Below, piece after piece: positions 11,101-13,329 of a DNA stretch of 64,000 nt. The position numbers and the translations under genes were made by a program. Each line of letters starts with the position of its first letter. Position 1 is the first letter of the stretch. A model generated the notes under the pieces. It saw only the letters and a list, made by a program, of their open reading frames with translations, was not told the origin of the DNA and made no database searches. Source of the stretch: Halodesulfovibrio aestuarii DSM 17919 = ATCC 29578. Its GTDB lineage: Bacteria > Desulfobacterota > Desulfovibrionia > Desulfovibrionales > Desulfovibrionaceae. The stretch lies in NCBI RefSeq assembly GCF_000384815.1, contig NZ_ARQF01000020.1, positions 930,001 through 994,000 of the forward strand. The letters are read 5' to 3'.

Positions 11101-11137
11101 AAAAAAGGCTGTCCTTCATATGAAGGACAGCCTTTTT
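11101..11137. terminator. Bidirectional terminator, perfect palindrome of the GGCTGTCC family
   Basis: Every base from 11107 to 11132 belongs to a perfect 26-bp palindrome beginning GGCTGTCCTTC, with six A's before and five T's after. It ends the U32 gene and the convergent Csd4-like gene. Confidence 0.92.
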
Positions 11138-11158: not shown

Positions 11159-12484
11159 TTAACGAACAGCCAACGCGTTATTTTCACTGAACCGGACAAG
11201 CACCATGCCGGAGAATTTTTCCCCCCGATATGCTTCTACCCGGTATACGCGTCCGTTTTTATCAAGAGAAAAACGTGAGATAAGGTCTTTTCTCCGTACT
11301 AACATACCTGATTCCGCACCGTTGTTTCGCCCTACGAACCCGATAATGTTAACCCGATAGCCATCCATAGAATTAATACAAAAATGGCTGTCTACATCAA
11401 TGATGGTTCCCATGGCAACGTCTCGAGTATGTCCATCAACATTTATTCGTAATGATGAGAGGCTATCATCAAATTCAAAAAATTGAGGAGATAAATTCGT
11501 CAGATTTCTGTTTCCGTAATAGACCTTATACCCGTTCGGAGCATCAACCATAGTCAGTAACGGCTTAGAAACTTCAAACTTGCTGGCAAGATCCTTATTC
11601 ATAGGGATATATTGCAAGTACTTACGGACATTATCCAGATCAAGCTGGAGTTTACCACCATACAGGGCAAGTTTAACCTGACTAAACATAGCCTGTTTTA
11701 TTGAACGAGGACTCAGGTCAAAGTCTCGAGAGAACTCGACACCAACCTGCTTCAGAAAGGATTCAAGTACCGAAAGATGATAGTATGTACGGGTCGGCGT
11801 CATGAATGATTTGCTAGCTTCAATACCGAACGCTGGCTTACCGTGCTTAATAGCATAGTAAGTCAACGTTTTTTCCATTTCATGATCCCCCTCACGTGTG
11901 CGGGTGTTCTTCAAATGAAAGGCATCGCTCCCTTGGAGTAACTCTGCGTTCACTTTTCGAACAGCAATTTCTGCCATGTCGCTTAGTCTGCCATACAACG
12001 GATGCTCAATAGCTTTTTGGTCGATAATAACGCACTGTCCCCAATAACCGGGGTTATGAAGTTCATCGATATATTGAGGATGATAGAAGCCGCTACCGTC
12101 GTGCAAGTTGAGAATCATATCAACCTGATCATTACGGATAATTTCTTTTATCCGCTGCACAGCAGTATAATCAGGGTCATTCTTATCCAACGCCGCAAAC
12201 TTGCGGTTCATATCACCGAATGGTCCACGCGCGCTCTTGATAATACTTAAAAAATTCAAATTAGGAACAACCCATACATTACCCTTAGTAATCTTGTAAT
12301 GGGTTACAAGCATGCCGGCAGCGCTGAATCCACCAGGTTCGTCACCCTGAATACCACCAACAACAAGAATGGTAGGGCCGTCAGGATCGTTTCCAAGTTT
12401 ATGTAACGAAAAATCCAGCGGGTTATGCGCAAACGCAGGAACTGCGGTCATGACAACAAGTATGAAAGATAGTAACAATCGCAT
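11159..12484 (-). CDS. Csd4/Pgp1-type peptidoglycan DL-carboxypeptidase (peptidase M14/M99)
   Basis: Periplasmic zinc peptidase; known members (H. pylori Csd4, C. jejuni Pgp1) trim muropeptide tripeptides to dipeptides and set helical shape. A Sec signal peptide occupies residues 1-19 (ends AFA). The atypical zinc ligands are all present and fall at the numbering I recall for Csd4: Gln46 and Glu49 in GGIQGDEPGG, His128 in NLHDGSGF; also Arg86 in SARGPFG and Glu222 in FGIEASKS. 441 residues against 438 for Csd4, so the two C-terminal domains should be present. Its start codon overlaps the stop of the upstream M15 gene (TAATG), implying coupled translation. Confidence 0.9.
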   Translation of the reverse strand: MRLLLSFILVVMTAVPAFAHNPLDFSLHKLGNDPDGPTILVVGGIQGDEPGGFSAAGMLVTHYKITKGNVWVVPNLNFLSIIKSARGPFGDMNRKFAALDKNDPDYTAVQRIKEIIRNDQVDMILNLHDGSGFYHPQYIDELHNPGYWGQCVIIDQKAIEHPLYGRLSDMAEIAVRKVNAELLQGSDAFHLKNTRTREGDHEMEKTLTYYAIKHGKPAFGIEASKSFMTPTRTYYHLSVLESFLKQVGVEFSRDFDLSPRSIKQAMFSQVKLALYGGKLQLDLDNVRKYLQYIPMNKDLASKFEVSKPLLTMVDAPNGYKVYYGNRNLTNLSPQFFEFDDSLSSLRINVDGHTRDVAMGTIIDVDSHFCINSMDGYRVNIIGFVGRNNGAESGMLVRRKDLISRFSLDKNGRVYRVEAYRGEKFSGMVLVRFSENNALAVR

Positions 12485-13329
12485 TATGAGTTCACCTTAA
12501 CATGCCAAGGTTCATACCGTACTCCCAGCAAATTGCCTCTGGGATATCGTAGTGTCAGGTAGCCAAGTTCATTCAACTTGCTGAACACATGTGTCTCAGT
12601 AAAACGGGAAGTAAAATTGGATTTTCCGTACCGCCTCTGCCCAACATCAAAATCACCAATACCGTGAAAAGAGTAACCCGGAGGAGCTAGTGACCGTGAA
12701 GCAAGAGACAAGTTTCCCCCGTTACTGTTCGCCTTCATAAGAAAAAGGTGGAACTGTTTCACTATTCCACGAACGCCGGATGTCAAAATCACATCAGAAG
12801 AAAGAGCACTTTTTATTTCTTTCCACACTCCATATGGATGTTCCTTAAAAAGATAGTGTCCACTGTTGCGAATTTTAATAACTTTGCTGCGGTTTATAGT
12901 CTGCGTAAATACAGTAATGGGTTTATCACCGTAAAACCCTAATAAATGGGCATCGTAGTAAAATATTTTTTCAAGAAAGGCTTTTTCCTGATTAGTAAAT
13001 GCTCCAATACGGGAATATCTTTTCCCATATGTAAAGGCTTGATCGATACTGACAAGATTAAAATTTCCGTATCCAACAGTACGCATTACACGAGTAAGCC
13101 TTGCAGTACATTCTTTAAGCAGTGTTAAATCTTCACCTTTCAACACAATATCATCTGGATGTGCTGAATCAAAATGACTCATCTTTGAAATATAGTCTTT
13201 CACATGTACATCAAACTGCCCATGCTGTTCTTGAGGCTTTTTCTCAATTAACTCTGCAGCAAGAGTATTGCATGGTATTGCCATCATAGATGCAATACAA
13301 ATCTGTTGTAAAAAGGATCGCCTGTTCAT
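12484..13329 (-). CDS. Tat-exported M15-family D-alanyl/LD-carboxypeptidase-like protein
   Basis: Predicted periplasmic zinc peptidase of the VanY/LdcB/M15 group, which cleaves D-Ala from cell-wall stem peptides. The N-terminus NRRSFLQ plus a hydrophobic stretch and a Leu-Ala-Ala site is a twin-arginine signal. Core motifs: SGVRG (184-188), S-x-H-x-x-G with His222 and Asp229 (GYSFHGIGDFDVG), and EPWHVKV with Glu273 and His276; these supply the zinc ligands and the catalytic Glu. First gene of a two-gene operon with the Csd4-like enzyme. I infer that it makes the shortened stem peptide the second enzyme acts on; DD versus LD specificity cannot be read from sequence. Confidence 0.82.
   Translation of the reverse strand: MNRRSFLQQICIASMMAIPCNTLAAELIEKKPQEQHGQFDVHVKDYISKMSHFDSAHPDDIVLKGEDLTLLKECTARLTRVMRTVGYGNFNLVSIDQAFTYGKRYSRIGAFTNQEKAFLEKIFYYDAHLLGFYGDKPITVFTQTINRSKVIKIRNSGHYLFKEHPYGVWKEIKSALSSDVILTSGVRGIVKQFHLFLMKANSNGGNLSLASRSLAPPGYSFHGIGDFDVGQRRYGKSNFTSRFTETHVFSKLNELGYLTLRYPRGNLLGVRYEPWHVKVNS

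Follow-up and report, generated by a model that had tools for sequence, protein, structure and literature searches.

The 64,000-nucleotide window analyzed here, taken from a Halodesulfovibrio aestuarii contig, carries on its minus strand a csd4/pgp1 gene (positions 11159..12484) encoding a 441-residue D,L-carboxypeptidase of peptidase family M99, assigned by Pfam, by matches to Csd4 structures and by a predicted model. Translation begins at the ATG at 12484, and a Shine-Dalgarno-like AAGGTGA lies shortly 5' of this codon. Directly upstream on the same strand is a gene (12484..13329) for a 281-residue M15 peptidase of the VanY/LdcB fold with a Tat-like MNRRSFL N-terminus, assigned by Pfam, structural alignment and motifs. 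The two genes overlap by a single base (TAATG). Downstream of csd4 a nearly symmetrical stem that resembles a terminator and has runs of T on each strand (11102..11137) marks the 3' end of the two-gene unit and is followed by a convergent U32-type peptidase gene, and upstream of the M15 gene dnaX is read in the opposite direction. Given this layout of overlap, stem and flanking genes, the M15 gene and csd4 are taken to form one unit, the two genes of which appear to be translationally coupled and presumably are co-transcribed.

The csd4 product comprises a signal peptide, a catalytic domain (residues 33-264), a weak middle domain and a C-terminal Ig-like domain (residues 338-432). The catalytic domain matched Peptidase_M99 (PF17033; 4.6e-86, 289 bits) and the Ig-like domain matched M99_C (PF17129; 1.2e-29, 102.8 bits), both above the curated Pfam cut-off of 27. 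The middle beta-barrel, M99_m (PF17130), scored under its cut-off (E 0.11), and the predicted model was aligned to structure 4wck across 422 columns. A phmmer comparison with the Helicobacter pylori Csd4 structures 4q6m/4wck gave an E value of 5e-105 over residues 35-432, with 167 of 398 aligned residues identical (42%). The sequence-only reading had named the protein Csd4/Pgp1 and proposed structure prediction as a check; when this was done the predicted model matched 4wck with a Foldseek E value of 8.5e-51 and a TM-score of 0.83-0.87. The homology is beyond doubt, and the protein is a full-length Csd4/Pgp1 that very probably has D,L-carboxypeptidase activity. An assignment to family M14 was dropped, there being no PF00246 match in the genome.

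All catalytic residues are conserved. The metal ligands Gln46 to Glu49 (QGDE, codons 12338..12349) and His128 (12101..12103), the segment Arg86 to Arg94 (12203..12229), which holds the substrate arginines Arg86 and Arg94 plus Asn93, and the catalytic base Glu222 (11819..11821) are all encoded on the minus strand. H. pylori Csd4 has the same residue numbers, including the glutamine metal ligand (QxxExnH) (Kim et al. 2014, PMC4220969), and the numbering given in the sequence-only reading for Gln46, Glu49, Arg86, His128 and Glu222 agrees exactly with that report, as does its claim of a glutamine zinc ligand in both proteins. Asn93 and Arg94 likewise bear identical numbers, and Arg86, Asn93, Arg94 and Glu222 are invariant in the Csd4 alignment. 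Note that in a Csd4 from a sister genus (L016) the equivalent invariant residues are found at 45, 48, 85, 127 and 221. As these numbers are shifted by one, it is the homology rather than the numbering that constitutes the evidence, and the identical numbering is partly luck of signal-peptide length.

Most of the meso-DAP contacts, together with all catalytic residues, are identical to those of H. pylori Csd4, and Trp148, Ile153, Glu202, Met203, Leu207 and Thr208 also agree. Four ligand-contact positions differ: His126 is replaced by Asn, Gly131 by Ser, Arg147 by Tyr and Ala220 by Gly. Asn126, Ser131 and Gly220 are fixed in 21 of 21 aligned rows, whereas Tyr147 is found in only three of the 21, all of them Halodesulfovibrio. 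In the H. pylori enzyme Arg147 reaches the D-Glu site through water (PMC4220969).

The M15 partner matched Pfam VanY at 3.8e-11 (43.3 bits, cut-off 25). Over residues 133-281 of its model the VanXY, VanY and LdcB folds were tied, all with Z values of about 9-10, and neither the sequence nor the structure tells D,D from L,D specificity; lower values were obtained for M15 peptidases of the endolysin type (Z 3.5-3.9), which says nothing firm on specificity. Its metal motif HGIGDFD (His222 to Asp228, 12646..12666) and its EPWH motif (Glu273 to His276, 12502..12513), both encoded on the minus strand, belong to a pattern SxHGxGDFDVG..EPWH that keeps the SxH, D and EPWH elements of the classical SxHxxGxAxD...ExxH zinc site with a His-to-Asp spacing one residue shorter. 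This shortened spacing is invariant among the aligned relatives, and Arg3-Arg4 is nearly so, as in Tat signals; the protein is probably Tat-exported. Neither a PBP5-type (PF00768) nor a PBP4-type (PF02113) D,D-carboxypeptidase was found in the genome, which leaves room for an M15 enzyme with that activity, and we give the M15 partner an even chance of being a D,D-carboxypeptidase.

In tblastn searches an M15 gene lay beside csd4 in 23 of 80 named loci, and in the 21 loci in which open reading frames were measured it was directly upstream of csd4 on the same strand, mostly overlapping it by 1, 4, 17 or 29 bases. The pair is held by Halodesulfovibrio, by Desulfovibrio sp. A2-type (genus g38) and by bins of Desulfobacterota and Desulfobacteraceae, and also by bins of Chromatiales and other Gammaproteobacteria and by Arcobacter, Malaciobacter, Sulfurimonas and other Campylobacterota; the measured pair-bearing loci thus come from two or more phyla and from a number of classes. 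Within the Desulfovibrionaceae sample the M15 gene was linked to M99 in genera g1, g2 and g38 and was present but apart from M99 in g8. Among 150 Campylobacterota genomes M99 was detected in 131 and M15 in 12, the two being linked in four (G204, G340, G262 and G326), and in the 16 Helicobacter-type loci used for the tree csd4 had no M15 neighbor. No description of an M15/VanY peptidase paired with Csd4/Pgp1 was found among the titles and abstracts surveyed, an incomplete coverage of the literature, and the coupling and its recurrent gene order seem to be new as far as the literature examined shows. The M15 gene was also considered as a replacement for Csd6. This idea was weakened by the presence of a csd6-like gene in 16 of 20 pair-bearing genomes; as these genomes hold both, the M15 enzyme is not simply a substitute for a Csd6-like enzyme.

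The Halodesulfovibrio genome has one YkuD protein with two Cds6_C domains, encoded by a csd6-like gene on the same contig as csd4, 424 kb away (L063:3132-5090; about 515.6-517.6 kb). It matched YkuD (PF03734, 9.1e-17) and, in two stretches, the NTF2-like Cds6_C (PF24125, 4.8e-24), and its best PDB match was Bd1075 (7o21, 1.7e-28) followed by Csd6 (3.6e-24) and Pgp2 (6.4e-20). Bd1075, Csd6 and Pgp2 are L,D-carboxypeptidases that yield tripeptides and, in Bdellovibrio, produce curvature (PMC8938487; PMC3961634). The Csd4-type muropeptide trimming proposed from the sequence alone would therefore have a source of substrate in the same genome, an L,D-carboxypeptidase of the Csd6/Pgp2/Bd1075 type. 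An uncharacterized membrane coiled-coil protein of 231 residues is encoded after the csd6-like gene. The genome has one bactofilin gene, behind rodA; this locus (L064:1220-4541) places it directly after pbp2-like and rodA-like genes and ahead of the ATP synthase genes.

Among the Desulfovibrionaceae genomes with an M99 gene, roughly one in two carries, in place of Csd4, a divergent M99 (E 1e-24 to 1e-45; an open frame of about 580-750 codons). The three such sequences aligned keep QxxE, Arg86, Asn93, Arg94, His128, Glu222 and the meso-DAP contacts. In the sister-genus loci inspected the operon-like gene order is a csd6-like gene (YkuD plus two NTF2 domains), a gene for a membrane coiled-coil protein of 226-246 residues and then the divergent M99 gene (L065:1279-4959, L067:1250-4948 and L068:27-3491). 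In 62 of 67 genomes the divergent M99 gene lay within 3 kb of a csd6-like gene, an arrangement seen in none of 23 genomes of the Csd4 class, and we read this adjacency as positional evidence for a link between the two trimming steps. The Halodesulfovibrio csd6-like locus has kept the csd6-like and membrane genes, with no M99 gene there. As far as the literature examined shows, this second M99 lineage seems to be undescribed. Another divergent M99 type, without a csd6-like neighbor, was seen in genera g34 (L066, G099) and g30 (L069, G030) and also in g20.

The sequence-only reading had described Csd4/Pgp1 as known from helical Campylobacterota. Its occurrence outside that group is not new: conservation of Pgp1 among epsilon- and delta-Proteobacteria of helical or vibrioid shape was reported in 2012 (Frirdich et al. 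2012, PMC3310789), and M99 was present in 163 of the 199 Desulfovibrionaceae genomes sampled. A novel taxonomic occurrence is therefore rejected, and the window gene is an unremarkable and securely identified csd4, of a kind reported before from this group. Two findings around it are less usual: the M15 partner to which csd4 is coupled and, in sister genera, a divergent M99 whose operon is of the Csd6 type.

We know of no experimental explanation of how Desulfovibrio-type bacteria curve. The vibrioid host surmised from the sequence is borne out by the published description of Halodesulfovibrio as a vibrio (PMC9174804, Table 1), and deletion of pgp1 makes Campylobacter jejuni straight (PMC3310789). 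The same table lists Lawsonia intracellularis as a vibrio and Mailhella as a rod (PMC9174804). No M99 was found in the L. intracellularis genome, identified by its plasmid, which retains a csd6-like gene and, close to dnaX like its window counterpart, the M15 gene (L150:3321-4208); csd4 has been lost from the equivalent locus, where a fumarase/aspartase-like gene occupies its position. As Lawsonia is a vibrio without M99, the enzyme is dispensable for curved cells in the family. The sequence-only reading had named retention of the gene in all straight-rod relatives as a refutation and, as far as tested, they do not all retain it: genus g42, which includes two named Mailhella MAGs, has M99 in only 3 of 15 genomes, and its csd6-like matches are weakened. 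Thirteen of the 15 genomes without a csd6-like gene also have no M99 (Fisher p 2e-9, a value that ignores phylogeny and assembly completeness), and hence the two tend to be lost together beyond expectation. In genus g40 two near-complete genomes, G126 and G195, have neither M99 nor a csd6-like gene, and a third genome, G161, is without M99 only; these may possibly be straight-rod Desulfovibrio, such as D. piger, which is a straight rod (PMC8069399). Taken together, csd4 seems somewhat more apt to contribute to curvature than to be immaterial to it.

We consider it likely that the coupled M15-Csd4 pair takes part in a stepwise trimming of stem peptides to dipeptides that aids the vibrioid shape. 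In such a pathway the M15 enzyme, acting as a D,D-carboxypeptidase, would convert pentapeptides to tetrapeptides, the Csd6/Pgp2/Bd1075-type enzyme would convert these to tripeptides and the exported metallo-enzyme Csd4 would then take meso-DAP off the tripeptide stems to leave dipeptides. The shortened, uncrosslinkable stems could bias the location of wall crosslinks and so give part of the vibrioid shape. Weighing against this account are the vibrio Lawsonia, in which no M99 was found, the four ligand-contact residues that differ from H. pylori Csd4 and the tied VanXY, VanY and LdcB matches of the M15 protein. Homology, the active site, the gene overlap, the conservation of the pair and the presence of an L,D-enzyme and one bactofilin are read from the DNA; we infer the co-transcription, the substrates, the order of the steps and the role in shape.

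An active D,L-carboxypeptidase might instead serve mainly wall recycling or cross-link control, with curvature arising from bactofilin, another cytoskeletal element or the Csd6-like enzyme alone. The curved cells of Lawsonia fit this explanation, as do the bactofilin gene and the fact that the reported curvature enzyme of Bdellovibrio is the L,D-carboxypeptidase Bd1075, homologues of which (the csd6-like genes) were found in 184 of 199 Desulfovibrionaceae genomes. However, the straightening of C. jejuni upon pgp1 deletion, the scarcity of M99 in the genus that holds the rod-shaped Mailhella and the tendency of M99 and the L,D-enzyme to go together in losses all argue against it, and we regard a recycling role as the less probable account, although one of some weight. 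A variant of the preferred stepwise trimming, compatible with the other readings, has the M15 partner as an LdcB-like L,D-carboxypeptidase that would convert tetrapeptides to tripeptides and feed Csd4 directly; the operon would then suffice by itself to take tetrapeptides to dipeptides and would duplicate the work of the Csd6-like enzyme. The direct coupling to csd4 and the equally good fit of the LdcB and VanXY structures are in its favor, but an L,D-enzyme is usually already present in pair-bearing genomes (the 16 of 20 with a csd6-like gene), the Halodesulfovibrio genome lacks PBP4/PBP5-type D,D-carboxypeptidases and many Csd4-bearing Desulfovibrio are without an M15 gene. L,D-carboxypeptidase activity of the M15 partner is thus rather unlikely.

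The csd4 gene could also be a recent horizontal gain from Campylobacterota without an established role, an explanation prompted by the similarity of about 45-47% between the window protein and Arcobacter-type sequences. The tree rejects it: in a quick tree the Desulfovibrionaceae Csd4 proteins grouped into a single supported clade in which Halodesulfovibrio is basal (26 rows; SH-aLRT 99 and 96), and csd4 was retained in all 10 of the Halodesulfovibrio genomes sampled. A recent transfer is thus extremely improbable. The single clade and the wide presence in the family indicate that csd4 is, as judged from these sequences, inherited within the Desulfovibrionaceae.

Halodesulfovibrio holds the trimming enzymes of the helical pathogens plus a csd4 partner that the model organisms seem to lack. 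It is about evenly balanced whether curved-shape trimming exists outside Helicobacter and Campylobacter in two alternative conserved arrangements, the M15-Csd4 pair of Desulfobacterota, Gammaproteobacteria and Arcobacter/Sulfurimonas-type bacteria and the operon of csd6-like, membrane coiled-coil and divergent M99 genes, with the M15 enzyme an unrecognized member of the shape pathway that the model pathogens have lost or never had. The gene-deficient relatives (Lawsonia, most Mailhella-group genomes and two g40 genomes) offer a direct way to test, in harmless sulfate reducers, whether trimming and shape are connected.

Compared with known systems, the catalytic domain of the window Csd4 is distantly like those of the M14 carboxypeptidases and the succinylglutamate desuccinylase-aspartoacylase family in fold, but has QxxE where most M14 enzymes have HxxE (PMC4220969). 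With H. pylori Csd4 (4q6m, 4wck-4wcn) and C. jejuni Pgp1 it shares the signal peptide and the domain order over its full length and, with the former, the Gln-Glu-His metal site, Arg86/Arg94 and Glu222; it differs from H. pylori Csd4 by H126N, G131S, R147Y and A220G, by the weak middle-domain score and by the position of its gene behind an M15 gene, a neighbor not seen in the Helicobacter-type loci examined. The M15 partner shares the fold and the H..D..EPWH motifs of VanY, VanXY and LdcB, but its HGxGDFD motif is one residue shorter and it has an extra helical N-terminal part, a Tat-like signal and the coupling to csd4. Finally, the Halodesulfovibrio csd6-like protein shares YkuD and Cds6_C with Csd6, Pgp2 and Bd1075 (7o21, its best match) but has two NTF2-like domains rather than one, and in the sister genera the csd6-like genes, unlike those of the known systems, are co-located with the divergent M99.
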